Origin: a virus
Direction: 5' to 3' (one strand)
DNA length: 48,221 nucleotides
IMG/VR virus record: IMGVR_UViG_3300020457_000019
Location: 1 to 48,221 of that record
Shown here: in pieces, positions 6,443 through 40,129 of the stretch
Layout: every line of letters starts with the position of its first letter
Position numbering within the stretch: the first letter of the stretch is position 1
The notes under the pieces: model-generated
What the model was told of the DNA's origin: nothing
What the model saw: only the letters and a program-made list of their open reading frames with translations
Database searches by the model: none
Translations under genes and position numbers: made by a program

Positions 6443-7647
6443 TGGCTTGCCCAGATAGCGGTCCAATTAAAATCTCTGATTTAGTAGCTGAATTTGGTGG
6501 TAATGCTCCTCATGCTTTGAGTGAGTACTATCGTGATGGAGGTGAAGTTCCCGGGAACAATACAAGTGTCCCAACTTCTGGACAGATATCTTTAACTCAG
6601 TTCTATTCAGCTGTTAATGAAATACAACACATAATAAGCACCAATACAAATCACTTCAATGCACAAACTGCATTCAGTTCCCATTGGAATACAACAGTCC
6701 CAAAGAGAGTTATTATCAACTCCGGAGTAACTGTTGGTGCTACAACAGGTAATGATGCTTTCCATATCCCTTCAGGAATGGCAGGCACATTAGTCATTGA
6801 TAACAATGGAAATATCCACGGGCATGGTGGAGCTGGTAGCTCTTCAGGTGCTGGTTCAGGCGGTGGCGATGCAATGCAATGCGACCAATCTACTGGAGTA
6901 ACTGTTAACAATAACGGACAAATCTACGCCGGAGGTGGCGGAGGTGGAATCGGTGGTAGCGGTGGCTCTGGCGGAACTGGCGGCGGAGGAGGTACCGGAG
7001 GAAACGGTCATATTAACCGTAAATACTACGGTCCCGGTAGATATCAATATATCAACGGACGACTTGACGGTACCAACTCTTGTTGGTTCTACGCGGCTAG
7101 TCATACCTATGCAGTTTGGGGTGGCTATACCAACCAATGTTATGACTCAGGTTGTGACGCTTATTGGTGGTGTTATGAAAACGTCTATACCAACGGAGGT
7201 TCCGGAGGTTCAGGTGGTGGCGGTGGAAATGGCGGTGCCGGAGGTGCCGGCGGAAACGGTCAAGGTCATAACCAAGCTCAAGCTAATGGTTCAGCTGGTG
7301 CAGCTGGTACATCTGGCTCAGGTGGTTCATCTGGAGCTAACCCCGGAAATAATGCCGGACAAGGTGGTACTGGAGGAACCGGTGGAACCGGAGGACAAGG
7401 TGGAACTGGCGGAAACGGTGGTACATGGGGTACTGCTGGAGGTGCTGGAGCTACAGGAAATACTGGAGACACAGGAGCTACTGGAGCTACTGGAAACAAC
7501 GGAAACCAAACTAATGGTGGAAGTGGTTCTGGAGGTAGTTCAGGTTCTGGAGGTTCCGGTGGTTCTGGAGGAGGTTCAGCTGGATACTACATAAAAAATA
7601 GAAGTTACGTAACACTAAATCAAAACGGCAACGTTGCCGGTCAATAA
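6442..7647 (+). CDS. Glycine-rich tail-associated protein
   Basis: The 401-residue product has a short N-terminal domain of about 55 residues (GPIKISDLVAEFGG through ISLTQFYSAV) of a type common in cyanophage structural genes, then a domain up to about residue 150. After that come two very long Gly/Ser/Thr/Ala-rich tracts (GGSGGSGG, GATGNTGDTGATGATG), separated by an aromatic and Cys-containing insert (about residues 190-250, rich in Tyr, Trp and Cys). The C-terminus returns to a non-repetitive YYIKNRSYVTLNQNG. Glycine-rich arrays of this kind occur in phage adhesins as bundles of polyglycine helices that bind receptors. The start overlaps the stop of the preceding gene by one base, so the proteins are probably made together. 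The repeats create long spurious open frames on both strands. Confidence 0.75.
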   Translation: MACPDSGPIKISDLVAEFGGNAPHALSEYYRDGGEVPGNNTSVPTSGQISLTQFYSAVNEIQHIISTNTNHFNAQTAFSSHWNTTVPKRVIINSGVTVGATTGNDAFHIPSGMAGTLVIDNNGNIHGHGGAGSSSGAGSGGGDAMQCDQSTGVTVNNNGQIYAGGGGGGIGGSGGSGGTGGGGGTGGNGHINRKYYGPGRYQYINGRLDGTNSCWFYAASHTYAVWGGYTNQCYDSGCDAYWWCYENVYTNGGSGGSGGGGGNGGAGGAGGNGQGHNQAQANGSAGAAGTSGSGGSSGANPGNNAGQGGTGGTGGTGGQGGTGGNGGTWGTAGGAGATGNTGDTGATGATGNNGNQTNGGSGSGGSSGSGGSGGSGGGSAGYYIKNRSYVTLNQNGNVAGQ

Positions 7648-11844: not shown

Positions 11845-12173
11845 CCCCTCTACTACCAAGTCCTAAACATTACTTACACAATTTAATAACCATGACAAGT
11901 TCAGATTCAAAACGGCTCTGGAGAAGAGCTGTGAAACAGCACTTCAATTGTCAATGTGTTTATTGCGGAAAAACTTATGAAGAAAACGAACTCACACTCG
12001 ATCATGTCAAACCTCTTAGCAGAGGTGGAGAAACTCTTACGAAGAATATCGTATGTGCCTGCAAGAAGTGCAATCAGGATAAAGGTAGTAGAAACTGGCT
12101 CCAATGGATGAGACATCGTTGGGGACCTAGACCAATACGAGAAAAAATGATAAGCGACCACCTCGCTGCATAG
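11841..12173 (+). CDS. HNH endonuclease
   Basis: The 110-residue product contains a zinc-bound HNH domain at about residues 34-78: C-x2-C (CVYCGK), LTLDHVKPLSRGG with the catalytic His, and C-x2-C (CACKKCNQDKG). Free-standing HNH nucleases next to terminases help cut DNA during packaging in several phages; others are homing nucleases. The start at 11841 overlaps the upstream stop; an internal ATG at 11892 would remove a leader without recognisable features and is an alternative. A rho-independent terminator follows at 12184. Confidence 0.85.
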   Translation: MTPLLPSPKHYLHNLITMTSSDSKRLWRRAVKQHFNCQCVYCGKTYEENELTLDHVKPLSRGGETLTKNIVCACKKCNQDKGSRNWLQWMRHRWGPRPIREKMISDHLAA

Positions 12174-12183
12174 ATAATTTACC

Positions 12184-12203
12184 GCCCCGCAAGGGGCTTT
12201 TTT
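12184..12203 (+). terminator. Rho-independent terminator after the HNH gene
   Basis: Stem GCCCC/GGGGC with a GCAA loop followed by six T. The next gene starts only 2 bases after the T-run, and AAGGGG in the 3' side of the stem could double as its ribosome-binding site. Folding of the stem would then hide that site. Confidence 0.85.
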
Positions 12204-12204
12204 A

Positions 12205-13257
12205 ATGGCTAATAAATTTATAGATGAGTTAGGTCGAACGACACTATCACAAGAAGACTATTTTAAAAAAGCAAAAATAATATGGGATAAAATGCCAAGA
12301 GGTAGTCATAAGTGGCCGGCTATTAGAGAAGCTCTTGGTATTGGCTATTGGGTTCCTAGAGGTGGGACCGAAAAAGTCGAATGGATGATTAAACCTAATC
12401 CTAATAGTAAAAAATGGGGATTTCAAAGATCACAAATTAACCCGGGTCCGGGTAGTACAGGAAGAACTGGTCAAATGGACCTTACCCGTGCGAACAGAGC
12501 AGTCAATGCAGCACCTACCAAGGGTAGAGAAGGAGAATCAGCAAAATGGGTTAAGAAACATATTACTGACTGGAACAATGGACAAAATCCTTGGAACACA
12601 AAACTTACCAGTCTTGACCCTGAATTTCGTCAATGGGAACACAGGATTAAAGTGTCTGACCCATTTTGGAAATCAGCTGATAATGACCTTCCTTATAAAG
12701 CTGGAGATGTAGAAAACTTTACTTGGACTAATCCAAAGCAAGTAGATTTAAAAAATACAGGAGAAATGAGGTTTGGTAAGGACTTTATTTTTGATGTAGA
12801 TGAATTTACAGGGGACGTAATCTATACACCTAGGCAGGGATTCAATCCACATAGCTCAAAGTTTAAAACATTTACAGGTCATGTAGACGAAACAGTCAAA
12901 GCTGCTAAGAAGCTTAAACCGGCTGTTAAAGGTGCAAAATTGGTTGGAAAAGCAATACCTTATGTTGGCGCAGCAGTTTCACTAGCTAGTTTTGCTGATG
13001 GAGCTAATGCAGCAATGAGAAACCCATCTGCGAAAAACTTCCAGAAACTAGGATTAAGAACTCTTGATGTAGGTTTAGAAGCTGTAGATTTCTTTACTGT
13101 AGGTCTATCTACACCATTAACCCTGTCAGCTCAAGCTGGTCTAATGGCTACAGAAGAATTTATTGATGGCAATATAGGAGGTCTGTCTAAAGCTGCACGT
13201 AAGGAAGAAGTCAGAAGACAGACAGAAGGGGGCTACTATGACTTCACAACGATGTAA
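12205..13257 (+). CDS. Unknown 350-residue protein between the terminase subunit genes
   Basis: I do not recognise this protein. The N-terminal third contains WDKMPRGSHKWPAIREALGI and is polar. The middle has a WEHRIKVSDPFW segment and many aromatic residues. The C-terminal third (about 235-325) is basic and then Ala/Gly/Val-rich (AKLVGKAIPYVGAAVSLASF) and could insert into or lie on a membrane. It starts right after a terminator and ends 7 bases before a TTATACAC motif, so it forms its own transcription unit or relies on read-through. Candidates are a virion-associated protein or a lysis/effector protein. Confidence 0.7.
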   Translation: MANKFIDELGRTTLSQEDYFKKAKIIWDKMPRGSHKWPAIREALGIGYWVPRGGTEKVEWMIKPNPNSKKWGFQRSQINPGPGSTGRTGQMDLTRANRAVNAAPTKGREGESAKWVKKHITDWNNGQNPWNTKLTSLDPEFRQWEHRIKVSDPFWKSADNDLPYKAGDVENFTWTNPKQVDLKNTGEMRFGKDFIFDVDEFTGDVIYTPRQGFNPHSSKFKTFTGHVDETVKAAKKLKPAVKGAKLVGKAIPYVGAAVSLASFADGANAAMRNPSAKNFQKLGLRTLDVGLEAVDFFTVGLSTPLTLSAQAGLMATEEFIDGNIGGLSKAARKEEVRRQTEGGYYDFTTM

Positions 13258-13264
13258 ACCCTAT

Positions 13265-13280
13265 TTATACACATTCGTAT
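13265..13280 (+). promoter_or_regulatory. TTATACAC-type motif directly before the terminase start
   Basis: TTATACACATTCGTAT is one of four copies of the same 16-base motif in the window (others at 16603, 17754, 21277). This copy ends exactly one base before the ATG of the large terminase gene, and CATTC/GAATG around it can form a small hairpin. It may be a promoter, operator or processing site; if a promoter, the transcript would be nearly leaderless. Confidence 0.5.
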
Positions 13281-15014
13281 ATGAATGACAATTTAACCGC
13301 CTTACAGGGCGATTTCAAGCTGTTTCTGCAAGCTTTATGGAACCAGCTTGATCTACCTTCACCTACTAGAGCACAATATGCGATTGCAGACTATTTACAA
13401 AACGGTCCGAAGAGACTCCAGATTCAAGCGTTTCGTGGGGTTGGCAAGTCTTGGATTACTGGGGCTTTCGTCCTTTGGACTCTATTTAACGACGTTGAAA
13501 AGAAAATAATGATAATTTCGGCTTCTAAGGAGAGAGCCGACAATATGAGTATCTTCTTACAGAAACTAATTATCGAAACACCATGGCTTTCTCATTTACG
13601 CCCGAAGTCCGACGATGCAAGGTGGTCAAGGATAAGCTTCGATGTGTTGTGCTCGCCCCACCAAGCTCCAAGCGTCAAATCGGTAGGTATAACTGGTCAG
13701 CTAACCGGAAGCCGCGCCGATTTAATGATTCTGGACGATATCGAAGTCCCCGGTAACAGTATGACTGAGCTTATGAGGGAGAAACTCCTTCAGCTCTGTA
13801 CTGAAGCCGAATCAATTCTTACACCGAAAGATGACAGCAGAATTATGTATCTGGGTACACCTCAGACTACCTTTACAGTTTATAGAAAACTATCTGAACG
13901 TAATTATCGCCCTTTCGTCTGGCCGAGTAGGTATCCCGTAGATACTACAGCTTATGAAGGACGAATTGCACCTCAACTACAGGAAGACATAGATAATGGT
14001 GCAGAAAAAGGACAACCTACTGACCCAGACAGATTTGATAACGAAGATCTTCTGGAAAGGGAATCAGCTATGGGAAGGAGCAACTTTATGCTCCAATTCC
14101 AGCTGGACACCACGCTTAGTGATGCTGAGAAGTTTCCTCTTAAAGCTGCTGACCTTATTATTACTAGCGTTAATCCTACTAAAGCACCCGAGAATGTCGT
14201 ATGGTGCTCCGACCCCCGAAACATTATTAAAGACCTACCAACAGTTGGACTCCCGGGAGACTATTTCTATTCACCTATGCAATTGCAAGGGGAGTGGAGT
14301 GAGTATTCCGAGACGATTTGTAGTGTCGACCCTTCAGGACGGGGTTCCGACGAAACGGCAGCTTGCTATCTATCCCAGAAAAACGGATTCCTCTATCTGC
14401 ATGAAGTGCGTGCGTATAGAGACGGGTACAGCGATGATACCTTGCTCGATATCCTTAAAGGATGCAAAAAATATAATGCTAGAACATTGGTTGTCGAAAC
14501 AAACTTTGGAGACGGAATCGTAAGTGAACTATTTAAAAAACATATTCAAGTTACCAAGCAAGCAATCTTCGTGGATGAAGTACGGGCAAACGTTCGTAAA
14601 GAAGACAGAATCATTGACTCGCTTGAACCCGTTCTTAACCAGCATCGTCTTATTGTGGACCGTGGTGTTATTGAGTGGGATTACAACTCAAACAAAGACA
14701 GTCCCCCAGAATCCAGACTACTCTATATGCTCTTTTACCAAATGAGCAGGATGTGTCGGATGAAGTTCGCTCTTAAGCACGACGACAGATTAGATTGTCT
14801 AGCTCAAGGCGTTAAATACTTTACAGATGCACTATCTATTTCAGCTGAAGCACAGATCAAGATGAGGAAAGACGATGAGTTCCTAGATCTGCTGGAAGCT
14901 TTCATAGACAATCCCCAACAAGCCACTAACCATCTGGTGTTAGGGATGAATAAAGACCAAAGACAACAAGCTAGAGGGAAAGCTGGTGGAAAGTCAGCTC
15001 CCACTTGGATGTAG
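13281..15014 (+). CDS. Terminase large subunit (T7 gp19-like)
   Basis: The 577-residue product is the DNA-packaging motor ATPase and nuclease. Walker A is FRGVGKSW (about 51-58) and Walker B is LMILDDIE (about 150-157). The C-terminal nuclease domain shows the acidic residues of the RNase H-like fold: CSVDPSGRGSDE (about 350), VVETNFGDG (about 400) and HDDRLDCLAQG (about 500). Length matches gp19 proteins of cyanopodoviruses and T7. It would act with the small subunit at 11364 and the portal at 32655. The stop codon is the first part of the 27-bp repeat at 15014. Confidence 0.95.
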   Translation: MNDNLTALQGDFKLFLQALWNQLDLPSPTRAQYAIADYLQNGPKRLQIQAFRGVGKSWITGAFVLWTLFNDVEKKIMIISASKERADNMSIFLQKLIIETPWLSHLRPKSDDARWSRISFDVLCSPHQAPSVKSVGITGQLTGSRADLMILDDIEVPGNSMTELMREKLLQLCTEAESILTPKDDSRIMYLGTPQTTFTVYRKLSERNYRPFVWPSRYPVDTTAYEGRIAPQLQEDIDNGAEKGQPTDPDRFDNEDLLERESAMGRSNFMLQFQLDTTLSDAEKFPLKAADLIITSVNPTKAPENVVWCSDPRNIIKDLPTVGLPGDYFYSPMQLQGEWSEYSETICSVDPSGRGSDETAACYLSQKNGFLYLHEVRAYRDGYSDDTLLDILKGCKKYNARTLVVETNFGDGIVSELFKKHIQVTKQAIFVDEVRANVRKEDRIIDSLEPVLNQHRLIVDRGVIEWDYNSNKDSPPESRLLYMLFYQMSRMCRMKFALKHDDRLDCLAQGVKYFTDALSISAEAQIKMRKDDEFLDLLEAFIDNPQQATNHLVLGMNKDQRQQARGKAGGKSAPTWM

Positions 15015-15040
15015 GGGGTACCCTGACCTATACAGGGGAA
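15014..15040 (+). repeat. 27-bp repeat, copy 1 (candidate phage promoter)
   Basis: This 27-base sequence recurs at 22134-22160 inside the RNA polymerase gene with one difference (G at 15025, T at 22145). Its core reads ACCTATACAGGGGAA, preceded by GGGTACCCT. The order of an ACCCT-like part, a TATA part and a G-run resembles T3/T7-type promoters. Here it starts at the last base of the terminase stop codon and lies 104 bases upstream of the next gene. Confidence 0.55.
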
Positions 15041-15054
15041 GGGTGGACCCTTGT

Positions 15055-15074
15055 AGGGGACCTTCGGGTCTCCT
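15055..15074 (+). terminator. Hairpin after the terminase gene, possible terminator
   Basis: Eight-base-pair stem (AGGGGACC/GGTCTCCT, one G-T pair) with a TTCG tetraloop. The same GGACC-TTCG-GGTC core forms the strong terminator after the capsid gene at 40130. Only two T plus an A/T-rich stretch follow, so termination here may be weak. It could also be an RNA-processing or stabilising structure. Confidence 0.5.
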
Positions 15075-15144
15075 TAACTAATATCCGTGAAAGATATTAA
15101 TAAAACAACTCCCCCTAACTACTTAAACAGTAATAACAGTATAT

Positions 15145-15411
15145 ATGCCAAAGCTTAAGCTAGAACGTTTTAGAAAGCTATACAAGAGTCTGAAAACTCC
15201 TTGGAAACCACTCAATTGGCTAATTCTTGGATACTTAATTGGAATCGAGAATAGATATATAGAGATAAAGTCGGCTCATGCTGTCGATGTAGCTGTCCGC
15301 AAGTTTAAAGCGGAATACGAGCATGCAACCACACCACCCGAAATAAAAATGAAGAAAACAGAAGACGGTTGGGAAATGTCTATCGGAGAAGTAGATGAAG
15401 ATATTTCTTGA
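15145..15411 (+). CDS. Hypothetical protein with one hydrophobic segment
   Basis: The 88-residue product has a basic N-terminus (MPKLKLERFRKLYKSLKTPWK), a short hydrophobic stretch (NWLILGYLIGI, about 24-34), then a charged helical and acidic C-terminus. It overlaps talC by 17 bases and may be translated with it. I do not recognise the family. Confidence 0.65.
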   Translation: MPKLKLERFRKLYKSLKTPWKPLNWLILGYLIGIENRYIEIKSAHAVDVAVRKFKAEYEHATTPPEIKMKKTEDGWEMSIGEVDEDIS

Positions 15412-16039
15412 TACTGCAATCGTTGGTGAGATCGAAGAGAGACTACCAACCGGGATAATTAAAGGTATAACCACTAATCCCACACTTATAAAGAGATCTG
15501 GTAAAGACCCTGACGAGACTTATGAAAAGATCTTCAATGCTGGAGTGAATGACTTGAGTATTGAGGTTAAAGGGGAAGATGCAGACACCTTAATAGCTAA
15601 TGGCATCATGTATAGCCGGAGGTTTGGAGATAAAGCAACTATTAAGCTACCTTGTACCGTTGAAGGTATAAAAGCGTGCAAAACGTTGTCTATATTACAG
15701 ATCAAAGTGAATATGACTCTGGTATTTAGTGTGAGTCAAGCAATTCTCTGCTCATTAGCCGGGGCAACCTACGTATCTCCGTTTGTTGGTCGATTTGACG
15801 ACAGAGGAGACGATGGTATTGGACTTATCCGGGATATAGTCGGAGTATATTGTAGTCATGGAAGTAAAACACAGGTATTAGCAGCTTCACTTCGCAATGC
15901 TCGCTCTGCTGCTAAAGCATTTCAAGCAGGAGCCGACATATGCACCTTGCCTGTCAAAGTATTCGACGATATGTTCAAACATGAGCTTACAGATATTGGT
16001 CTTGAGCAATTCCGGTTGGATTTTGGCGTAAATGTCTGA
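15395..16039 (+). CDS. talC: Transaldolase (TalC/FSA type)
   Basis: The 214-residue product belongs to the short transaldolase family. Motifs are FLDTA at the start, GITTNPTLI (about 24-32), the Schiff-base lysine in ATIKLPCT (K84), and C-terminal ADICTLP. Transaldolase moves a dihydroxyacetone unit between sugar phosphates in the pentose phosphate pathway. Cyanophage copies are thought to steer host carbon toward NADPH and nucleotide precursors during infection. It is a well-known auxiliary gene of cyanophages and in related podoviruses lies near one genome end. Here it is the last late gene before the non-coding G+C-rich stretch, consistent with the physical ends lying just downstream. Start: ATGAAGATATTTCTTG overlapping the upstream gene. 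Confidence 0.92.
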   Translation: MKIFLDTAIVGEIEERLPTGIIKGITTNPTLIKRSGKDPDETYEKIFNAGVNDLSIEVKGEDADTLIANGIMYSRRFGDKATIKLPCTVEGIKACKTLSILQIKVNMTLVFSVSQAILCSLAGATYVSPFVGRFDDRGDDGIGLIRDIVGVYCSHGSKTQVLAASLRNARSAAKAFQAGADICTLPVKVFDDMFKHELTDIGLEQFRLDFGVNV

Positions 16040-16099
16040 AGTGGTATAACGACTCCACAGGGCGCGGAAAAACCCCCATGGGGGGTGGCAAAAACGGTC

Positions 16100-16120
16100 C
16101 GTCGGATCTATGATCCGGCG
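16100..16120. repeat. Strong hairpin downstream of talC
   Basis: Nine-base-pair stem with a three-base TAT loop (CGTCGGATC / GATCCGGCG, one T-G pair). No T-run follows on either strand close by, so it is not a standard terminator. It could be a DNA-end, packaging or transcript-stabilising structure. Confidence 0.6.
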
Positions 16121-16373
16121 AAGTCCGCTGGTATGACTGGGATTTTGCAAGGATTATCACGCGCGATCAATTAACGCGGGCGGGCGCGGGAACAATTAAC
16201 GCAGGCATGCACACGCGCACGCGGTTTACTTGTCGCTCTCACTCTCTCGCGATCTGTTGCCCAACGAATTTTCCCAGTCAGCGACAGGGATGAACATCGA
16301 GTTGTATCATTTGTTCAGGGCTAACCGATACACCATGGTATACTGAGAACAGAGAGAGTTGTTTTATGTTTAC

Positions 16374-16414
16374 TTTATTTATCTCATCCCTTTAGGGTGA
16401 GAGAGATAAATAAA
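16374..16414. repeat. Long A/T-rich inverted repeat
   Basis: TTTATTTATCTC (16374-16385) and GAGATAAATAAA (16403-16414) are perfect inverted copies. The loop itself contains CCCT/AGGG and CTCA/TGAG complements, so a hairpin of about 17-18 paired positions is possible. It lies about 190 bases upstream of the first TTATACAC motif in the early control region. It could be an origin element, regulator site or RNA structure. Confidence 0.6.
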
Positions 16415-16465
16415 CTAAACAACAACTCCTCTCCACCGAAAAACAAACTCTGGGGACTGCTCGAC

Positions 16466-16615
16466 ATGACTGAGCAGCACAGCAAGCGACAGGTCCGGAA
16501 GATCCTAGCTAGCCCCACCGAAGGTCAGCCCCCGACTCGGGACCAGAGCGAATACACAGCCGAGAACATCCGGCACGTAGTGCATACAAAACAAGTGCTA
16601 ACTTATACACATTAG
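16466..16615 (+). CDS. Possible small early protein, 49 residues
   Basis: ATG at 16466 is preceded by GGGGA about 8 bases upstream. The product is polar and basic (MTEQHSKRQVRKILASPTEG at the start) and ends inside the TTATACAC motif at 16603. Its G+C-rich codons differ from neighbours. It may be only an open frame in the control region. Confidence 0.3.
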   Translation: MTEQHSKRQVRKILASPTEGQPPTRDQSEYTAENIRHVVHTKQVLTYTH

Positions 16616-16618
16616 TAT
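16603..16618 (+). promoter_or_regulatory. TTATACAC-type motif, early region copy 1
   Basis: TTATACACATTAGTAT, identical to the copy at 17754. It runs into a perfect inverted repeat TAGTATCT/AGATACTA (16613-16630), which in turn abuts the tRNA-like element at 16631. It sits upstream of the first clear early gene and may be the early promoter or a regulator site. Confidence 0.5.
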
Positions 16619-16630
16619 CTTTAGATACTA

Positions 16631-16701
16631 GATAGCCCAGTTAGTGGATGCGTAGTGGTGCCCCTTCAGCTACGCATGAACGGTGCAAATCCGTTGCTAT
16701 C
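16631..16701 (+). ncRNA. tRNA-like cloverleaf element upstream of the early genes
   Basis: Read as RNA, this 71-base stretch folds like a tRNA. The acceptor-like stem is GATAGC (16631-16636) with GCTATC (16696-16701). A D-arm-like hairpin CCA/TGG (16637-16647) follows. Then comes a 7-bp arm TGCGTAG/CTACGCA (16649-16655 with 16670-16676) with a 14-base loop. A T-arm of exactly tRNA geometry closes it: stem AACGG/CCGTT, 7-base loop TGCAAAT, stacked directly on the acceptor strand. The large middle loop and G in place of the second T-loop U argue against a working tRNA. It lies in the leader of the gene at 16749 and could be a processing site for RNase P/Z, a regulatory RNA or a tRNA mimic. Confidence 0.5.
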
Positions 16702-16748
16702 ACTTGGATATTTATATCCAAATTGTTAATTTAATTCGGAGAATTATT

Positions 16749-17063
16749 ATGTTTGGTTACACTATTGTGAATCGTAGATTCAGCAATGCTATTGAGTTTG
16801 CTGCTGTTAACGTCTTGCAGGGTCGCTGCATTATCAGATTCAAAGAATCTGGTGCTGAGTATCTTTACAAGAACGTTAGTCGTAGACGACTACTTAGCTT
16901 GTTAATAGATAACAACAAAAGCTTAGGGTTTTGGATTCAATACCTTAAAAAGAATGCTATTCAAGAGAATAGATATCGTCCAGCAACTGGTGCTATGACA
17001 TACAACCGCATCGGTTTTAGTTACTTCAATGAAGTACCTAAGTTATTAACAGCTGGTGCCTAG
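16749..17063 (+). CDS. Early protein with KTSC-like domain
   Basis: I chose the ATG at 16749 because TTCGGAGA, a good ribosome-binding site, precedes it by 6-8 bases; an in-frame ATG at 16683 lies inside the tRNA-like element. The 104-residue product contains IIRFKESGAEYLYKNVSRRR followed by LLSLLIDNNKSLGFWIQYLK, matching the pattern of KTSC domains (F-x-x-G-x-x-Y-x-Y-x-x-V then S-x-G-x-x-F/W). KTSC domains are small beta-barrel modules found in phage and bacterial proteins of unclear function, some linked to lysyl-tRNA synthetase. It is the first clear early gene and probably acts soon after DNA entry. Confidence 0.7.
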   Translation: MFGYTIVNRRFSNAIEFAAVNVLQGRCIIRFKESGAEYLYKNVSRRRLLSLLIDNNKSLGFWIQYLKKNAIQENRYRPATGAMTYNRIGFSYFNEVPKLLTAGA

Positions 17064-17065
17064 TC

Positions 17066-17752
17066 ATGACTAGAGTGCATATCTCAAAGAGATCATCCAA
17101 CTCTAAGGTAGGTAAAATCCCTGTCACTACAAGTGAACAGGGGACCTGCCCCACCACATGTCCAATGTGGGATGGATGCTACGCAAAGACCGGACCTCAA
17201 AGCTGGCATTGGCGCAAGGTCACAAACGGCGAGCGCGGCGGCACGTGGGATGACCTCGCTGCTTTTGTATCACAATTAAATGCCGGTCAACTATGGCGGC
17301 ACAATGTTTCTGGGGACCTCCCATATGTGACCGCACCTGATGGGCAAGAGCTTATCAACTTAGCACTATTAAAGCAGTTAATAGATGCTAATAAAGCTAG
17401 TGGTGCTAAGGGTTATACCTACTCCCACCACAAACTAAATACTCATAACCTTGAAGCTTTAAAGTATGCAAACAAGAACGGATTTACTATCAACGCCAGC
17501 TGCGAATCACTCGCGCAAGCTGATGATGCAAGAGCGCAGGGACTACCGGCTGTGTGTGTTGTTCCCTCAGATGCGGAAACTCCAACACATACACCAGCTG
17601 GGCATAAGGTAACAGTTTGCCCAGCGCAGTTACACGATAAAGTATCATGTTCAACGTGTAAACTTTGCAGTTATAGTAACCGTTCTCAAGTGGTCGCATT
17701 CCTTGCACATGGTGCCCGGGAAAAGAAAGTAAATGTTAATTTAAATGGTTAA
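17066..17752 (+). CDS. Cysteine-rich phage early protein (GP88/DUF7227-like)
   Basis: The 228-residue product opens with KRSSNSKVGKIPVTTSEQ, then TCPTTCPMWDGCYAKTGP. This IPVTTS-x-x-TCP-x-x-CP-x-x-x-x-GCYA-x-x-G pattern recurs in a family of phage proteins of unknown function. Towards the C-terminus is a second Cys cluster, VSCSTCKLCS (about 199-207), after VCPAQ. The two clusters and a barrel-like middle (TYSHHKLNTHNLEAL, INASCESLAQADDA) suggest a metal- or iron-sulfur-binding enzyme; a radical-SAM-like role has been proposed for similar architectures but is not shown here. It lies 2 bases after the KTSC gene, and its stop codon overlaps the next TTATACAC motif. Confidence 0.7.
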   Translation: MTRVHISKRSSNSKVGKIPVTTSEQGTCPTTCPMWDGCYAKTGPQSWHWRKVTNGERGGTWDDLAAFVSQLNAGQLWRHNVSGDLPYVTAPDGQELINLALLKQLIDANKASGAKGYTYSHHKLNTHNLEALKYANKNGFTINASCESLAQADDARAQGLPAVCVVPSDAETPTHTPAGHKVTVCPAQLHDKVSCSTCKLCSYSNRSQVVAFLAHGAREKKVNVNLNG

Positions 17753-17753
17753 C

Positions 17754-17769
17754 TTATACACATTAGTAT
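17754..17769 (+). promoter_or_regulatory. TTATACAC-type motif, early region copy 2
   Basis: TTATACACATTAGTAT, identical to the copy at 16603, beginning 1 base after a gene stop. Like that copy it is followed immediately by a hairpin. Confidence 0.5.
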
Positions 17770-17770
17770 A

Positions 17771-17809
17771 ATAATAGTGGTATTAATCATGCCACTATTA
17801 TATATTTTT
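17771..17809 (+). terminator. Rho-independent terminator in the early region
   Basis: Perfect 10-bp stem ATAATAGTGG (17771-17780) with CCACTATTAT (17792-17801), 11-base loop, then ATATTTTT. It ends the transcription unit of the two preceding early genes. It begins two bases after the TTATACAC motif. Confidence 0.75.
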
Positions 17810-17850
17810 CCACACTCATAGACGCACACTCATCTTATTTCCACACTCAC
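17808..17850. repeat. Three short direct repeats of a CCACACTCA type
   Basis: TTCCACACTCA at 17808-17818 and again at 17839-17849, with GCACACTCATC between (from 17824), followed by the palindrome CACACGTGTG. This looks like a cluster of protein-binding sites. A CTATACATAGGAGTATA stretch at 17864 follows, similar to part of the TTATACAC motif. Confidence 0.45.
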
Positions 17851-17898
17851 GCCACACGTGTGTCTATACATAGGAGTATATATTTTTTTATTTTGCTC

Positions 17899-17957
17899 AT
17901 GGTCGCCACGTCCACATGGACGCAGGGTCGCAGGGTCGCACATGGACGCATGGTCGC
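17899..17957. repeat. Short G+C-rich imperfect repeats
   Basis: CATGGTCGC (17899, 17949) and CATGGACGCA (17915, 17941) flank a tandem pair of GGGTCGCA (17925 and 17933). The block looks built by slippage or duplication in front of the tRNA-like T-arm at 17977. Confidence 0.7.
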
Positions 17958-18000
17958 GCTGACTCCGAACAGCATGGACGGTTCGATTCCGTCTACGTCC
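17944..18000 (+). ncRNA. Truncated tRNA-like element with intact T-arm
   Basis: A textbook T-arm, GACGG-TTCGATT-CCGTC (17977-17993), is followed directly by TACGTCC, which pairs with GGACGCA at 17944-17950 except for one mismatch. Between them is a hairpin GCTG-ACTCCGAA-CAGC whose loop resembles the anticodon loop CTCCGAA of a tRNA-Arg(CCG) with one T lost. There is no room for a D-arm (57 bases in all). An alternative 5' strand GGACGCA at 17918 would make it 83 bases. It may be a decayed host tRNA gene or a shortened tRNA mimic in the leader of the next gene. Confidence 0.5.
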
Positions 18001-18036
18001 TATTACTTCTCAATGAGAGAAGTTATTCGGAACATC

Positions 18037-18339
18037 ATGAAAGCATACAAAGTTCTCTACAAAGAGACCATGATTCACAAGTTTGTTGTACCAGCTAAGT
18101 CAAAAGCTGAAGCTGTACGACACATCAAAGACAGAATCTATTGGGATTTAGAGCCATTATCAGAATGTTCTGATGATGACTACTCAGTCAAGGACATACA
18201 AATCCTTGATGAAATGCCAACAGCTAGTCAATGGTGGAACAAGGTCCTTGAAAGTAGACAGAGCTGGCTCGAACAGCAAGCCAGAGACAAAGCAGCTAAA
18301 CAAGCAGCTGAGAACAACAATCTTAGAACTGATTTCTAA
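18037..18339 (+). CDS. Small early protein (YKV family A)
   Basis: I place the start at 18037, MKAYKVLYKE; an open frame continues upstream through the tRNA-like element but has no coding character. The 100-residue product has an N-terminal beta/alpha module (YKVLYKETMIHKFVVPAKSK, then AEAVRHIKDRIYW), an acidic middle and a helical charged C-terminus. The N-terminal module resembles that of the protein at 18866 (YKVIYR, WHLIKAKTDEDAAYEAL), so the two may be paralogues. Function unknown; probably host take-over. Confidence 0.6.
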   Translation: MKAYKVLYKETMIHKFVVPAKSKAEAVRHIKDRIYWDLEPLSECSDDDYSVKDIQILDEMPTASQWWNKVLESRQSWLEQQARDKAAKQAAENNNLRTDF

Positions 18340-18341
18340 TT

Positions 18342-18548
18342 ATGAATCAAACACAATTCGTTACCGAAGTGTACGAGGTTGCGTGGTCGTCTAATCCTGA
18401 CCTCGACCATTCCTCATCTTTTCAAGATGTACTCAAGGAACTAAGGGAGATGAAGGATAAAGCACTACGCATGGACATCCTCACTAGCACGCTCAAACCT
18501 GAGCCGGTACTACCCAACATCGCACAAAGGAGACAAGGACAGCTATGA
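18342..18548 (+). CDS. Small early protein, 68 residues
   Basis: Starts 2 bases after the preceding gene; its stop overlaps the next ATG (ATGA). The product is acidic and helical in the middle (FQDVLKELREMKDKALRMD) and ends basic. No family is recognised. Confidence 0.55.
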   Translation: MNQTQFVTEVYEVAWSSNPDLDHSSSFQDVLKELREMKDKALRMDILTSTLKPEPVLPNIAQRRQGQL

Positions 18549-18694
18549 AACACATTAATTGTCTAATGAACTCTCAACAGTACAGCAACTTGCAGACTCT
18601 GTTATGTGAAGCACTAGAGAGAGCCAATGATTCTATCCTTACTTGCTCACTTGAAGCAGACGAGATCGAAGATCTCATGAACGCTCTTAACTAA
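18545..18694 (+). CDS. Small early protein, 49 residues
   Basis: Overlaps the upstream stop by 4 bases and shares one base with the next start (TAATG). An AAGGAGA ribosome-binding site lies about 8-14 bases upstream. The product (MKHINCLMNSQQYSNLQTLL at the start) is helical, ends acidic (EADEIEDLMNALN), and has no recognised family. Confidence 0.5.
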   Translation: MKHINCLMNSQQYSNLQTLLCEALERANDSILTCSLEADEIEDLMNALN

Positions 18695-18828
18695 TGCAAG
18701 TACCAAATTACATACACCACTCAAATAAACCACAGAAAAGAACACTTAAACCTCAAGCTTTGAGGTCCGCTAAAAAGCGATTGAAGCACTTAAGACTACG
18801 CCTGACAGTCAGTAAACCCCCTAAGTAA
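18694..18828 (+). CDS. Small basic early protein, 44 residues
   Basis: Starts inside the upstream stop (TAATG). The product is very basic (KRTLKPQALRSAKKRLKHLR in the middle) and could bind nucleic acid or a host enzyme. Small basic or acidic peptides are typical of early regions in T7-like phages. Confidence 0.45.
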   Translation: MQVPNYIHHSNKPQKRTLKPQALRSAKKRLKHLRLRLTVSKPPK

Positions 18829-18865
18829 TTGGACAGGTACTAAATACACACTCATCAGGCACGCC

Positions 18866-19021
18866 ATGAATACCTACAAAGTCATATATCGACTCAAAGA
18901 GAGCGATATCTACAGGAGTTGGCACCTAATTAAAGCCAAAACAGACGAAGATGCAGCTTACGAAGCTCTTGACTTCGCAAAGTCGCACAAATATGTACTC
19001 TTAGACGTATTAAAGACATGA
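18866..19021 (+). CDS. Small early protein (YKV family B), 51 residues
   Basis: The product (MNTYKVIYRLKESDIYRSWH at the start, then LIKAKTDEDAAYEALDFAKS) shares a YKV-x-Y / hydrophobic strand / AK-[S/T]-x-x-E-A pattern with the N-terminus of the protein at 18037. Its stop overlaps the next start as ATGA. Function unknown. Confidence 0.55.
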   Translation: MNTYKVIYRLKESDIYRSWHLIKAKTDEDAAYEALDFAKSHKYVLLDVLKT

Positions 19022-19338
19022 AAAAGAAAGAATTTCCAAATAATTGGCGTGCAATCCAACAGTCTCCAGACGAGTTCTTCCCATCTATGCCCGTTAACCA
19101 GTTCATGGACTGGAAAATACATGGATATATGATTCCAGACTCAGTATCTTGCATGATTCGTGAGACACATGAGAACGGAAAAGTAACAGAACACACGTAT
19201 AACACCGTTGGACGTGGACAAAACAAGGTCCGCAAGCTGATACAAGAAAACAAAGAATTTATTCTATGCACCATGGAAGGCATGTGGCATTTAAAACCTG
19301 ACCAATCACAAGAAAATCATGAACCGAAGAACATTTGA
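19018..19338 (+). CDS. Hypothetical early protein, 106 residues
   Basis: Start overlaps the upstream stop (ATGA). The product has an N-terminal polar part, then a beta-rich segment with SCMIRETHENGKVTEHTYN, NKVRKLIQENKEFILCTMEG, and a polar tail. No family is recognised. It overlaps the next small gene by 20 bases. Confidence 0.6.
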   Translation: MKKKEFPNNWRAIQQSPDEFFPSMPVNQFMDWKIHGYMIPDSVSCMIRETHENGKVTEHTYNTVGRGQNKVRKLIQENKEFILCTMEGMWHLKPDQSQENHEPKNI

Positions 19339-19462
19339 AATTAGATACGCGGAATTATTACGCGATGTAAACAGACATCCAAATAGAGCAGAATTACTTA
19401 ACATTCTGCAACAACAAATGGCTGACGATACTGTTAAAGTTAATACATATACGAAGGTGTAA
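19319..19462 (+). CDS. Small early protein, 47 residues
   Basis: The product is helical and charged (FEIRYAELLRDVNRHPNRAE, then LLNILQQQMADDTVKVNTYTKV). It ends in TAA, after which the same frame stays open and encodes a ribbon-helix-helix protein (see 19466). Whether the two are separate or joined by read-through cannot be told from the sequence. Confidence 0.5.
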   Translation: MNRRTFEIRYAELLRDVNRHPNRAELLNILQQQMADDTVKVNTYTKV

Positions 19463-19465
19463 CCC

Positions 19466-19624
19466 ATCAAGCGATTAACCATTAAAGTTAACGATGAACT
19501 TCATATGAAGATCAAGATCTTAGCAGCAGCAAAGAATCTGACTTTAGATGCGTTGATGAATGATGCAGCAGAGACGTACATACAACACAACAGTAAAGAC
19601 ATCAGAGATGTATTTACAAATTAG
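19466..19624 (+). CDS. Ribbon-helix-helix (CopG/Arc-like) DNA-binding protein with ATC start
   Basis: The 52-residue product reads KRLTIKVNDELHMKIKILAA, then AKNLTLDALMNDAAETYI. This is the classic ribbon-helix-helix pattern: a DNA-contacting beta strand (LTIKV), helix A, a turn, and helix B. Such small dimers repress promoters. The only ATG (19511) would delete the beta strand and most of helix A's start. An AAGG ribosome-binding site lies 8 bases before ATC at 19466, so ATC is either a rare start codon, an assembly error for ATG, or the gene is reached by read-through of the TAA at 19460. It is the best candidate for a transcription regulator in the early region. Confidence 0.6.
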   Translation: MKRLTIKVNDELHMKIKILAAAKNLTLDALMNDAAETYIQHNSKDIRDVFTN

Positions 19625-19694
19625 GATACCAAAATGTACATTGCATATAACAACCTAATACCCTAGTTTATCCCCAACAACGATAACGATTTCC

Positions 19695-19895
19695 ATGGAA
19701 ATTTTCAGTAAAGGTGCCTTTTACTTAGGCATGGACAAGGAGAAGTTTTGCGACTTTGATATACACATTGGTAGATTAGTGGTACAATACACATGTCCAC
19801 ATACGGACAAGTTAACACCACCCAAGGACGATGGAACGAGCAACCGACCCATGGAAGGACCAACTGACAGACAGTCAGATGGAGAAGCTCTTTAA
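19695..19895 (+). CDS. Possible small protein, 66 residues
   Basis: An open frame with an ATG at 19695 and an internal one at 19731, overlapping the following gene by 65 bases. The first 40 residues look protein-like (FCDFDIHIGRLVVQYTCP) but the end is merely the next gene read in another frame. Support is weak. Confidence 0.35.
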   Translation: MEIFSKGAFYLGMDKEKFCDFDIHIGRLVVQYTCPHTDKLTPPKDDGTSNRPMEGPTDRQSDGEAL

Positions 19896-20199
19896 ATGTT
19901 TAAAGACATTTATGATCTTCGACCCTGAGATGCCATTGCAACTACAACTGACTTTCTTATACATCGCATCACATGACGGGTGTCATAAGCAAGCAATGGA
20001 AGCTGCATTGGGTTACTCAAATGCTGCTGGTAGCAGGAATACTGACTACCTAGCAGAGATACATCGTTACAAAAACAAGCCGGGGCTGAAACTGATTAGC
20101 AAGGAACGAGACCCTTCTAATCTAAGGAGGTATCAACTCGTCCTTACTAAATCTGGTAAGCAACTGGTAGATACTCTCAAGGAACAACTCTATGGCTAA
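19831..20199 (+). CDS. MarR-like winged-helix protein
   Basis: The 122-residue product has helices followed by a wing-like end: PLQLQLTFLYIASHDGCHKQ, AMEAALGYSNAAGSRNTDYL, then RRYQLVLTKSGKQLVDTLKE. The last part matches the strand-turn-strand-helix (R-x-x-x-L-T-x-x-G) typical of MarR-type winged helices. It probably binds DNA or sets a switch between early programmes or between lysis and integration, as it directly precedes and overlaps the integrase gene by 8 bases. A similar gene in the same place exists in P-SSP7-like phages as I recall. Confidence 0.65.
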   Translation: MERATDPWKDQLTDSQMEKLFKCLKTFMIFDPEMPLQLQLTFLYIASHDGCHKQAMEAALGYSNAAGSRNTDYLAEIHRYKNKPGLKLISKERDPSNLRRYQLVLTKSGKQLVDTLKEQLYG

Positions 20200-21061
20200 A
20201 TCACTTACTTGGGGCGATTGTTTAGATTACACGCTCCGTAATCTGGAGACTTGGCGTAATGGTGGTGGACGAGAATCCGCCATATTATATTCAGGTTACT
20301 TCACTAGATATCAAGGGCGTACATTCCCTGTTCATCGAATCTCGAAAGGTTTAATGACAGATATATGTACATCCCTCGAGGAAGAAGGTAAGAAGAATGC
20401 CACTATCAATAGGTTTATATCAGCAGTCTCAACAGTACTTAAATACTGTAAAGAGAATGAGATTATTACCTTTGATCTTCCTACTCCTTTCAAACGTAGA
20501 AAGGAAAGAGATAGAACTAATCGTAAGTATTACACTAAAGAACATGTCAAGGACATGCTACGCATAGCCAGAGACGTGATGTGTAATGACAACTTAGCTG
20601 ATCTCATACAAGCCGCTGCCCTTACTGGTATGCGCCTAGATGAATTACTTAAGTTACCAGTATGGAGAGTTGACCTCAACTTAAATGTTATTAATGTTGA
20701 GCATACTAAAAACGATGAAGCTAGATGTATTCCTATACACCCACAGCTGATGAACACACTCATCACGCGGTGCGAGGATGCTAACTCTAAGGACAAAGTA
20801 TTTGGTATTGATTGGACTAACTCCGACCAAGTTCGTTGGCAGTTCAAGAACCTACTCCATAGACACATGAACTTCCCTGAAAATGGACAGTATGTGTTTC
20901 ATTGCTTACGACATAGCTTTGCCACTTGGCACTTAGCTAATGGGACACCCCCGATTGAATTAATGTCTATGTTGGGACATTCAAATCTCACAACAACCCT
21001 GCTATATGCGAAAGCTACAGCAGCTGGACAGAGGAAGGCACAAGACGATCTACAATTCTAG
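20192..21061 (+). CDS. int: Tyrosine site-specific recombinase (integrase)
   Basis: The 289-residue product has an N-terminal SAM-like core-binding domain (about 1-105) and a catalytic domain with all expected residues: R148 (LTGMRLDEL), K173 (EHTKNDEA), H237-x-x-R240 (FHCLRHSF), H263 (LGHSN) and nucleophile Y272 (LLYAKA). It should recombine the phage attP with a host tRNA-Leu gene; a tRNA-Leu fragment lies 98 bases downstream, in the arrangement described for P-SSP7. Integration of marine cyanopodoviruses has rarely been seen, so the gene's role in nature is open. Confidence 0.95.
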   Translation: MAKSLTWGDCLDYTLRNLETWRNGGGRESAILYSGYFTRYQGRTFPVHRISKGLMTDICTSLEEEGKKNATINRFISAVSTVLKYCKENEIITFDLPTPFKRRKERDRTNRKYYTKEHVKDMLRIARDVMCNDNLADLIQAAALTGMRLDELLKLPVWRVDLNLNVINVEHTKNDEARCIPIHPQLMNTLITRCEDANSKDKVFGIDWTNSDQVRWQFKNLLHRHMNFPENGQYVFHCLRHSFATWHLANGTPPIELMSMLGHSNLTTTLLYAKATAAGQRKAQDDLQF

Positions 21062-21158
21062 TTCCGTCGAATCCGTTACCTCTAAATTATTTCCATTTCC
21101 TTGGATTTTAATGACATGTTAAGTGCGTCTGTTAGACTCAATTCGGCTCAAATGCCTT

Positions 21159-21197
21159 GGGAGTGTGGCGGAATTGGTAGACGCGCCGGACTTAAAA
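21159..21197 (+). other. attP: Putative attP: 5' part of a tRNA-Leu(UAA) gene
   Basis: This stretch (GTGTGGCGGAATTGGTAGAC at its core, then GCGCCGGACTTAAAA) is the acceptor strand, D-arm and anticodon-arm 5' side, including the UAA anticodon, of a bacterial tRNA-Leu. The homology stops right after the anticodon. No T-arm follows, so it is not a working tRNA. A tRNA fragment directly downstream of a tyrosine integrase gene is the usual sign of an attachment site. Confidence 0.88.
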
Positions 21198-21228
21198 ACC
21201 GCATAAGTTAATTTTCAGAATGGTATCC

Positions 21229-21258
21229 GACCTTGGCATGATCGCCGAGGTCTTTTTA
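21229..21258 (+). terminator. Rho-independent terminator between int/attP and the RNA polymerase gene
   Basis: Nine-base-pair stem GACCTTGGC/GCCGAGGTC (one T-G pair), six-base loop, five T. It ends the integrase transcript; the polymerase gene therefore needs its own promoter, and a TTATACAC-type motif lies at 21277. Confidence 0.88.
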
Positions 21259-21276
21259 TTTGCAAGGGTTTAGAAA

Positions 21277-21292
21277 TTATACACCTTAGTAT
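21277..21292 (+). promoter_or_regulatory. TTATACAC-type motif upstream of the RNA polymerase gene
   Basis: TTATACACCTTAGTAT, 19 bases after the terminator's T-run and 29 bases before the ATG. Since the terminator isolates the polymerase gene from upstream transcripts, this is the strongest argument that the motif is, or contains, a promoter. Confidence 0.6.
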
Positions 21293-21321
21293 CCGTCCAA
21301 TTAAAAAATCCATAGAACTAA

Positions 21322-23658
21322 ATGCTTCCTGCTGATCTAGAAAGACAGGAGAGATTCGAGCGAAGACAAATAAGCGGTGGACTAGAAAAGATCAGATCTA
21401 ATACCAAGAAATTACTTGAACAAGATTATGCTTCAGCCACGGTCTTCGGCTCGGCGAGTATTGATACTCTCCTCCCATTAATAATTGACCAAATAAAACT
21501 AAAAAAGGAGAAAAGAAAGAAAATAGCAGTCAAGGGTGCTGGTCATCTCATGGAGATACTGCCATACCTTGATGACATTGATAGTGAATCACAGTCAGCT
21601 ATCACATGTAAGATCACATTCGATAAAGTATTCAGCTACAAGAAAGAGAACTCAAAGATAGTCAAGATAGCTCAAGCTATTGGACAAGCTCTCGAAGCTG
21701 AGAGTCAGATGCGTTACTACGAGGACACCGCCCCGGGTCTATTTAAGGTCCTGAAAGATAACTACTGGCATCAAGCTAAGGGAACTGAATACAAGCGCAA
21801 GAGTATGCAAGTACTCTTCAACAAATCAGATGTAGAACCTTGGATACCTTGGAATACACAGCTCAAGATCAAGACCGGCACATGGTTCCTTGATTGTTTC
21901 TGTGAATCCTCTGGTTGGTTTGAAAAATTAAATATAAGAATAGGTAAGAGAACAGAATTATATTTAAAGACAACACCCGAGTTCGATGCACATAAAGCAG
22001 AGATCATAAGAATTACCGAATTGTTTTCCCCAATCAGCTGGCCGATGCTAATTGAGCCAAGAGATTGGAGCGATCTACACGACGGAGGTTACTACTTAAA
22101 TGACATAACCAAATGTCATGAAATGGTACGACGGGGGGTACCCTTACCTATACAGGGGAAAAAAACTTATGAGTTTTTAAACCTGATACAGAAGGTTAAA
22201 TACTGTTTAAATGATTTTACTGTAGAGGTAGCGAAGGAGTTAGAGAGAAGAGAGGTAACTGTAGGTAAATTCAGACCTGTACTTCATCATCCTGAACCAC
22301 CTAAACCTTTTGATATTGATATTAATAAAGAAGCACGCCAAGCTTGGAAGAAGAAAGCAGCGATAGCTAAGAATAAGAACGCCAACGAATGGCGTACCAG
22401 TTGTCGTACTCGTATGACTATGAACTGCGTACGTGAGTTTGAAGGCAAGGACTACTATATCCCATGGTCTTTCGACTACAGGGGTAGAGCATATCCTATA
22501 CCTAGCTTCCTTACACCACAAGATACTGACTTTGGTAAGAGTCTCATTAGGTTTTCTGATGAAGCTCCCATTACTGATGACGGTAAGAAGTGGTTAGCTT
22601 TCCAAGTAGCGACTACCTATGGGCTTGATAAAGCAACGCTAGAAGAAAGACTAGCGTGGCCGGAAGAGAATACCACACTCATCAAGCGCGTAGCTACTGA
22701 CCCCCTAAATCACATAGGGGACTGGGAGACAGTTGACGAACCTTGGCAATTTCTTGCTGCATGTGAAGAATACTATGCAGTAGTGATAGCTGAAACAAGG
22801 ACTACTACTGGTCTTCCTGTGGCAACCGACGCAACCTGTTCTGGCTTGCAAATACTTGCTGGTCTTGCTCGCGATAAGTCCACAGCTTCACTTGTTAATG
22901 TCATACCAAGTGAGAAACCTCAAGATGCTTATCAAGTAATAGCTAATAAGAGTCTACATAACATACCTGAAAGGTTACGTCCCTACTGGGATAGGAAGAA
23001 AACCAAGCGTTGCGTGATGACAATCCCTTACAACGCTAAACCTTTCAGCAATCGTCAATATATCAGAGACGCATTCAATGATATAGACATCGAGGTAGAG
23101 AACGAAGAACTAACTCAAATAGTTCACGCAGTCCGGACGGCAATGGAAGAGGTCGTCCCGGGACCAATGAAGGTAATGAGATGGATAGAAACTGAAGTAG
23201 CCAATGCAATCAAGAGAGGAACGGACCAATTGATATGGGTCACACCCTCCGGATTCAGGGTTACTCAACGTCTCATGAAAATGAATACCAAGATACTCGA
23301 ATTAAAACTACTAGGTCGAGTTCAGGTACGCATAGCTGATGGAGAGAAAGGAGTTGACCTCCAGCATCACAAGAATGCTACAGCTCCTAATCTTATTCAT
23401 TCATTAGATGCTTCATTGCTACACATATGCGCGACACAGTTTCACGCACCAATAAGTCTGATACATGATTCAGTCTTATGTAGAGCGACTGATATGAATT
23501 TGTTATCCCACCTAGTTAGAGATACATACATGCACCTATTTGCGGAGCATGACTTCCTAAGAGACTTTGCTCAAGCTATTGGAGCTGAGTCTGAACCACC
23601 GATTATTGGAGACCTTCAACCATCTTCAGTAATTGACTCACTATATTTCTTTTGTTGA
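21322..23658 (+). CDS. Single-subunit DNA-directed RNA polymerase (T7 gp1-like)
   Basis: The 778-residue product carries the T7-family signatures: motif A DATCSGLQ with catalytic D503, motif B-like KTKRCVMTIPYNAKPF (Lys and Tyr of the O-helix, about 555-570), NLIHSLDASLLH, and motif C LIHDSV with the second catalytic Asp (about 715). It is shorter than T7's 883 residues, mainly in the N-terminal promoter-binding part. It should transcribe middle and late genes from phage-specific promoters. Bases 22134-22160 (residues about 271-280, RGVPLPIQGK) are nearly identical to an intergenic sequence at 15014. The stop overlaps the SSB start. Confidence 0.95.
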   Translation: MLPADLERQERFERRQISGGLEKIRSNTKKLLEQDYASATVFGSASIDTLLPLIIDQIKLKKEKRKKIAVKGAGHLMEILPYLDDIDSESQSAITCKITFDKVFSYKKENSKIVKIAQAIGQALEAESQMRYYEDTAPGLFKVLKDNYWHQAKGTEYKRKSMQVLFNKSDVEPWIPWNTQLKIKTGTWFLDCFCESSGWFEKLNIRIGKRTELYLKTTPEFDAHKAEIIRITELFSPISWPMLIEPRDWSDLHDGGYYLNDITKCHEMVRRGVPLPIQGKKTYEFLNLIQKVKYCLNDFTVEVAKELERREVTVGKFRPVLHHPEPPKPFDIDINKEARQAWKKKAAIAKNKNANEWRTSCRTRMTMNCVREFEGKDYYIPWSFDYRGRAYPIPSFLTPQDTDFGKSLIRFSDEAPITDDGKKWLAFQVATTYGLDKATLEERLAWPEENTTLIKRVATDPLNHIGDWETVDEPWQFLAACEEYYAVVIAETRTTTGLPVATDATCSGLQILAGLARDKSTASLVNVIPSEKPQDAYQVIANKSLHNIPERLRPYWDRKKTKRCVMTIPYNAKPFSNRQYIRDAFNDIDIEVENEELTQIVHAVRTAMEEVVPGPMKVMRWIETEVANAIKRGTDQLIWVTPSGFRVTQRLMKMNTKILELKLLGRVQVRIADGEKGVDLQHHKNATAPNLIHSLDASLLHICATQFHAPISLIHDSVLCRATDMNLLSHLVRDTYMHLFAEHDFLRDFAQAIGAESEPPIIGDLQPSSVIDSLYFFC
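22134..22160 (+). repeat. 27-bp repeat, copy 2, inside the RNA polymerase gene
   Basis: 26 of 27 bases match 15014-15040. Here it encodes part of RRGVPLPIQG. An A-run and AAAACT/AGTTTT hairpin follow directly. A protein-coding origin cannot explain the match, because copy 1 is outside any gene. Confidence 0.6.
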
Positions 23659-24230
23659 TGAAAAACATACACATAACACCAAATCCTGTAACCCTTGAAG
23701 GTTATCAGGCGATATTAAAGCCAAGCAAGTTTGGCTATTCCTTAAAAGCCGTAGTAGGTCAGGATATAGTTGACAAGCTTGAGAGTGAAAGAGCTGATTG
23801 TCTTAAATGGGCAGAGTCAAAGCTCAAGAACCCAAAGAGATCTACTCTACGTCCCGAGCCGTGGGAGGAAGTTGAAAAAGGTAAGTTCGTTATAAAGTTC
23901 TCATGGGCTGAAGATAAGAGACCACCAGTAGTTGATACAGAAGGTACACCAATAACCAACATAGACACACCAGTATATGAAGGTTCCAAGGTTAAGCTCG
24001 GCTTCCATCAAAAACCCTATATTCTGAGAGATGGCGTGACATATGGCACCTCATTGAAATTGTCCGGAGTACAGATCGTTTCTATCCAGACGGGAGCCGG
24101 CATTGATAGTGGAGACCTAGACGAGGATGGAGTAGCAGAACTGTTTGGTAAGACACAGGGCTTCAAAGCTGATGACCCTAATGTCACAGTAGATACTACT
24201 CCTAGTTCAGTAGAAGACGACGACTTCTAA
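23658..24230 (+). CDS. Single-stranded DNA-binding protein (T7 gp2.5-like)
   Basis: The ATG at 23658 overlaps the polymerase stop (TGATG) and is preferred over two in-frame TTG codons just before it. The 190-residue product has an OB-fold-like core (FVIKFSWAEDKRPP, VKLGFHQKPYILRDG, GTSLKLSGVQIVSI) and the typical very acidic C-terminal tail ending in an aromatic residue (SSVEDDDF), which in T7 binds the polymerase and helicase. It protects single strands and organises the replisome. Its position between RNA polymerase and gp3 endonuclease is the T7 order. Confidence 0.9.
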   Translation: MKNIHITPNPVTLEGYQAILKPSKFGYSLKAVVGQDIVDKLESERADCLKWAESKLKNPKRSTLRPEPWEEVEKGKFVIKFSWAEDKRPPVVDTEGTPITNIDTPVYEGSKVKLGFHQKPYILRDGVTYGTSLKLSGVQIVSIQTGAGIDSGDLDEDGVAELFGKTQGFKADDPNVTVDTTPSSVEDDDF

Positions 24231-38635: not shown

Positions 38636-38709
38636 TGCCACGTCCGTTCATCCCTAACGGGACGCATGACTCCAAAGCATGGAACGGGGCTTTGGTACTG
38701 GAGTGAATT

Positions 38710-40114: not shown

Positions 40115-40129
40115 TTTATACATTTATAC

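Follow-up and report, generated by a model that had tools for sequence, protein, structure and literature searches.

The window analysed here is the whole stretch of 48,221 nucleotides, a circular genome cut at an arbitrary point (its ends overlap by 122 bp with 98% identity). Its polymerase and terminase are most similar to their counterparts in Prochlorococcus phage P-SSP7 and other T7-like cyanophages related to it, and the genome is that of a marine cyanophage of the T7-like group, close to P-SSP7. A 27-bp sequence is present at 15014-15040 (GGGGGTACCCTGACCTATACAGGGGAA) and at 22134-22160 (GGGGGTACCCTTACCTATACAGGGGAA), with 26 of 27 bases identical and one mismatch. No further site was found on either strand of the window with up to 3 mismatches allowed. 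The first copy overlaps the terminase stop codon TAG (15012-15014) by that codon's last base and is otherwise non-coding. The second copy runs from the third base of codon 271 into codon 280 of the RNA polymerase gene and encodes the peptide GVPLPIQGK. Sequence comparison and open reading frame coordinates thus confirmed what the preliminary description had claimed, namely the 26/27 identity and the location of one copy past the terminase stop and of the other in polymerase residues ~271-280. Its judgement that chance identity is very unlikely was also borne out, as 100 dinucleotide shuffles gave no second-site match to the 27-mer. The features of the locus, all on the plus strand, are as follows.

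13281-15014, plus strand: terminase large subunit, T7 gp19 type
15014-15040, plus strand: 27-bp repeat, right-end (terminase) copy, from the sequence scan
15017-15031, plus strand: predicted phage RNA polymerase promoter, -15 to -1, GGTACCCTGACCTAT, +1 at 15032; syntenic with T7 phiOR
15032-15054, plus strand: SL1, hairpin from the predicted +1 with loop AAGGGUGGA; compensatory stem changes in relatives
15055-15074, plus strand: SL2, UUCG-loop hairpin; terminator-like in relatives, U tract weak here
15079-15099, plus strand: SL3, hairpin AATATC..GATATT; recurs in relatives (judged by eye)
21322-23658, plus strand: single-subunit T7-type RNA polymerase
22134-22160, plus strand: 27-bp repeat inside the RNA polymerase gene, codons 271-280
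22137-22151, plus strand: predicted phage RNA polymerase promoter, -15 to -1, GGTACCCTTACCTAT, +1 at 22152
23293-23331, plus strand: polymerase codons 658-670, equivalent to T7 residues 746-758, promoter specificity loop; its variation best tracks the promoter

The predicted promoter element of the window phage is also written GGTACCCTKACCTATACAGGGG.

Several other elements were observed in the genome. A left-end element at 16599-16705 consists of TTATACACATTAGTAT, a small hairpin and a tRNA-like cloverleaf (GATAGC...GGTGCAAATCC...GCTATC; fold z -3.36), and homologues with compensatory stem changes occur in several contigs as well as in P-SSP2 and P-SSP3. ARAGORN called no tRNA at this element, and no tRNA genes were called in the window. 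The repeat TTATACAC.TT.GTAT (13261-13280, 16599-16618, 17750-17769 and 21273-21292) sits just 5' of several genes, including 30 bp ahead of the polymerase start. It could be bound by a regulator or serve as an early promoter for the host RNA polymerase. A sigma-70 scan of 12000-24000 gave no matches in excess of shuffles. In addition, TTATACACA resembles a DnaA box, a glutamine-II riboswitch aptamer lies at 38642-38696 (E 1.4e-9), and a near-perfect inverted repeat by the predicted left genome end (16367-16421) is 85% identical in P-SSP7. A GGGACCTTCGGGTCCC hairpin with a T run (40124-40148) is located just 3' of ORF 38990-40114, which would be the capsid gene by the gene order in P-SSP7; the main terminator of T7 is in the equivalent place. 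A near copy of this hairpin lies at 15051-15075, 3' of the right-end promoter.

Paired sites in Syn5 and other T7-like cyanophages

The promoter of the Syn5 phage RNA polymerase, ATTGGGCACCCGTAA, was reportedly mapped in vitro by Zhu et al. in 2013. We found exactly two occurrences of it in the Syn5 genome. The first (ATTGGGCACCCGTAAGCAAG at 4929) lies at codon ~270 of the polymerase gene (4120-6459), and the second (ATTGGGCACCCGTAAGCAAG at 44797) lies 5 bases past the terminase stop (44791). In P-SSP7, AACCCCTACGTATACAGGGG occurs at 6853 and 43820, the places matching the Syn5 pair. The Syn5 genome has been described as having only two promoters, a single one of them within the polymerase gene, with the start immediately 3' of GTAA (PMC3950665). 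The window shares this arrangement: there are two copies only, one at polymerase codon ~270 and one directly 3' of the terminase near the right end, the common block spans 15 bases ahead of a purine start (+1), and a T7-type cognate polymerase is encoded in both phages. However, the window promoter agrees with ATTGGGCACCCGTAA at only 5 of 15 bases and so does not carry the Syn5 sequence. That sequence is not defining for the wider kind because each phage has its own, and the case therefore rests on place and covariation, not on sequence. Furthermore, the Syn5 promoters were tested, whereas promoter activity and start sites in the window phage are inferred by comparison.

A similar location is known in T7, where phiOR lies at 39229, 99 bp past gene 19; the right-end copy in the window also follows the terminase. 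The genome ends are predicted near 16055-16280 from homology to P-SSP7; this would place the second promoter ~1 kb short of the right end, a position like that of phiOR. The window element also resembles T7 and T3 promoters in having CTATA ahead of a G-rich start. However, some 15 promoters are distributed over the T7 genome (PMC3950665) as opposed to two in the window, and the sequences differ. A search of the window for a many-times repeated element like the T7 consensus TAATACGACTCACTATAG showed only the two sites, of another sequence.

In isolates and in metagenomic contigs with both genes, we compared the sequence at and near polymerase codon 271 with that immediately 3' of the terminase stop. 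In most of the isolates, the two segments matched well over random stretches of the same genomes. A promoter pair was found in 61 phages or contigs, and almost all relatives of the window phage have one at these two positions. The intergenic copy, whose lack of conservation in related genomes the preliminary description had named as evidence against its reading, is thus kept in them. The mean pair score was 19.7 within a phage vs 9.0 between phages (61 pairs), and the sum of own-pair scores was 1199 vs a permutation maximum of 665, with none of 20,000 permutations reaching the observed value; the independent cases are fewer than 61, as near duplicates and close relatives (e.g. P-SSP2/P-SSP3, L150/L151, L154/L254) are included.

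The element sequences diverge widely between phages, most of all at -15 to -4, yet match within each phage. With the start as the anchor of the alignment, identity between the two copies extends from -15 to ~+5 and falls off steeply at -16 to -18 and past +6. Mismatches within pairs were seen in 0-15% of phages per column at -15 to +1, and in about 50% at -16 to -18. This shared block corresponds to the published 15-base promoter of Syn5 together with its start, and the -8/-6 numbering is consistent with the PRSeq work on Syn5. Several phages, that of the window among them, have -7 as the only position of the promoter block at which their two copies differ. Exactly two sites (up to 2 mismatches) were present in 23 of 26 complete genomes, and the other 3 have three. 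The genomes with the third near-match are 7B11-B, S-B28 and S-CBP2 (e.g. at 16389 in S-CBP2). The pairs in a few clades (7B11-B, S-B28, DSL-LC07, L182 and L154) match over only ~9-14 bases.

These comparisons bear on the possibility that the polymerase copy merely encodes a conserved peptide and the intergenic copy is a coincidence. Part of the core indeed encodes an IQG peptide conserved in many polymerases, but the identity spans variable peptide positions and third codon positions as well. Chance is already refuted by the shuffles, from which none are expected, and by the pairing in the 61 phages and contigs with 0 of 20,000 permutations, leaving this explanation a negligible probability.

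Covariation with the polymerase and the promoter reading

A blind scan was performed over 9-residue segments of the polymerase in 48 non-redundant phages, taking the partial correlation of each with promoter distance while controlling for overall polymerase distance. The top segment was residues 658-666 (T7 746-754), with a partial correlation of 0.369 (mean of -0.005, sd of 0.099; 0 of 2000 permutations). In T7, residues 746-754 open the specificity loop, by which the promoter is read. The runner-up (0.312) was, trivially, the peptide encoded by the promoter itself, and the next segment reached only 0.203. Such covariation with the specificity loop is what would be expected of a polymerase and its cognate promoter.

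The repeats could also be conceived as recombination or attachment sites, i.e. direct repeats used by an integrase or in homologous exchange. A tyrosine integrase is encoded at 20192-21061, and the direct repeats flank about 7 kb. However, the repeat sequence varies between phages and stays paired within each, one copy always lies in frame inside the polymerase gene, which an exchange would cut, and the identity of the integrase would leave the covariation with the specificity loop unexplained. We consider this explanation extremely improbable. On the evidence of pairing, shuffles and covariation, the chance repeat, the attachment or recombination site and the coding constraint were all rejected.

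The preliminary description had also offered an operator or processing site, at which a regulator binds the repeat or its RNA is cleaved, without being a start site. The right-end copy does overlap a conserved RNA hairpin, a possible cleavage site in read-through late mRNA. However, the block common to both copies (-15 to +5) is mostly upstream of the hairpin, the polymerase gene copy has no hairpin, the block covaries best with the specificity loop of the polymerase, and its Syn5 equivalents are proven promoters. An operator or processing site is thus improbable, though somewhat less so than an attachment site.

The two copies very probably act as promoters for the single-subunit RNA polymerase that the phage encodes, and the pair belongs to the kind known from Syn5. 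The suggestion that these are promoters used by the phage polymerase, one of them within the gene for it, was therefore upheld by the Syn5 places, the 61 concerted pairs and the loop covariation. The proposed autoregulation did not receive such support. Transcripts from the inner start at codon ~277 would be missing the initial third of the message for the polymerase. Because of this start, the inner promoter would serve the genes downstream and not amplification of the polymerase, whose full-length message would not be remade from it. Each promoter would be read by the phage polymerase from -15 to ~+5, with starts at 15032 and 22152. In P-SSP7, the equivalent register would put the starts at 6866, within the polymerase gene, and at 43833, past the terminase. 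The promoter in the polymerase gene would give one very long transcript of ~40 kb, covering the replication and virion genes through the terminase; the Syn5 polymerase transcribes more than 37 kb from one promoter (PMC3950665). The promoter past the terminase would give an RNA that opens with SL1 and meets a terminator-like hairpin within about 60-95 nt in most relatives.

Predicted structured RNA at the right genome end

The account of the intergenic copy in the preliminary description had missed a predicted structured RNA that begins there. Among 132 non-redundant post-terminase regions, 126 matched the search pattern for the loop exactly, and in each of these the motif folds into a hairpin with 5 or more pairs. 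Of the other 6, several have a variant motif or a terminase end that looks truncated. Two loop types were found, type A (AAGGGUGGA, n=73) and type B (AGUGGUGC, n=53), the latter followed by a further conserved stretch. The window has type A, as opposed to type B in Syn5. In ungapped alignments, 97.7% of stem cells were paired in both types; the type A alignment was chosen for simple uninterrupted stems, which favours its pairing percentage, and the type B alignment was not selected for pairing except for the removal of one mis-anchored row. Changes on both sides of the stem occurred at 8 of 8 pairs in type B and 7 of 8 in type A. The SL1 covariation scores were 0.78 and 0.94 for the two types, compared to at most 0.34 and 0.38 in slid controls. 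Type B showed 60 G-U vs 1 A-C and type A 68 G-U vs 20 A-C, more than half of these A-C cells lying in the outermost, mostly unpaired column. This wobble excess favours conservation at the RNA level on the plus strand.

A terminator-like hairpin is present 3' of SL1 in 90 of 125 regions vs ~14 expected from shuffles, and also in the window, where the U tract is short. SL2 may not stop the phage polymerase, because the Syn5 polymerase ignored a T7 terminator in vitro (PMC3950665). An SL1-like hairpin was found 3' of the terminase copy only and is absent after the polymerase gene copy; the phiOR transcript of T7 also differs in having no hairpin at its start. Rfam showed no family match at 14950-15350 or at the Syn5 equivalent with gathering or permissive thresholds, and the freely accessible literature that was searched contained no description of the right-end RNA. 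A search with the type B pattern hit 37 viral contigs; one further hit, to a stretch in a bacterial MAG, is probably phage DNA.

A leader for the next gene is unlikely. The element is followed by the talC region in P-SSP7 and the window and by thymidylate synthase in Syn5 and P60; in S-TIP28, the record ends without another annotated gene. Its persistence whatever gene follows argues against a single-gene leader. The least certain part of our interpretation is that the SL1 RNA is either a small RNA made by the phage polymerase or a right-end processing or packaging element for concatemers. A hairpin at the predicted start would suit a stable 5' end, a terminator would release an RNA of 45-95 nt, and transcription from the right-end promoter could aid concatemer processing by analogy with T7. 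We tentatively propose, at somewhat less than even probability, that the right-end promoter makes a dedicated small RNA (~45-95 nt, with a 5' hairpin, a AAGGGUGGA or AGUGGUGC loop and a terminator) that all T7-like cyanophages share and require, either to process or package concatemers or to take over the host. The packaging RNA of phi29 is an example of a phage-encoded structured small RNA. It resembles the SL1 RNA in being compact, structured and encoded near a genome end, a likeness that implies no sequence or structural relation.

Earlier promoter assignments and significance

In a 2024 screen of phage polymerases, the promoter of P-SSP7 was taken as AAAATTCTTCAAGTTTACAA and that of S-CBP42 as CACTTCCACTCAACCAACCG; 8 of 26 enzymes were active, and wrong promoters were suspected behind the failures (PMC11475235). 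The elements found here, C[AT]AACCCCTACGTAT-A in P-SSP7 and ATCTGGCCCATGTAA-G in S-CBP42, are quite unlike those promoters. A repeat located within coding genes, at 35716 and 37196, resembles the string used for P-SSP7 and is apparently its source. The group-wide rule, the specificity-loop covariation and the right-end RNA are new as far as the literature searched shows.

These data provide a simple rule: for nearly every polymerase of the T7-like cyanophages, the promoter can be read from the genome by comparing polymerase codon ~270 with the bases past the terminase stop. The rule has practical value, since predicting the promoter is the limiting step with new phage polymerases. In addition, dozens of natural polymerase-promoter pairs become material on the evolution of specificity, and a conserved, unnamed RNA is indicated at the right end of very abundant viruses.
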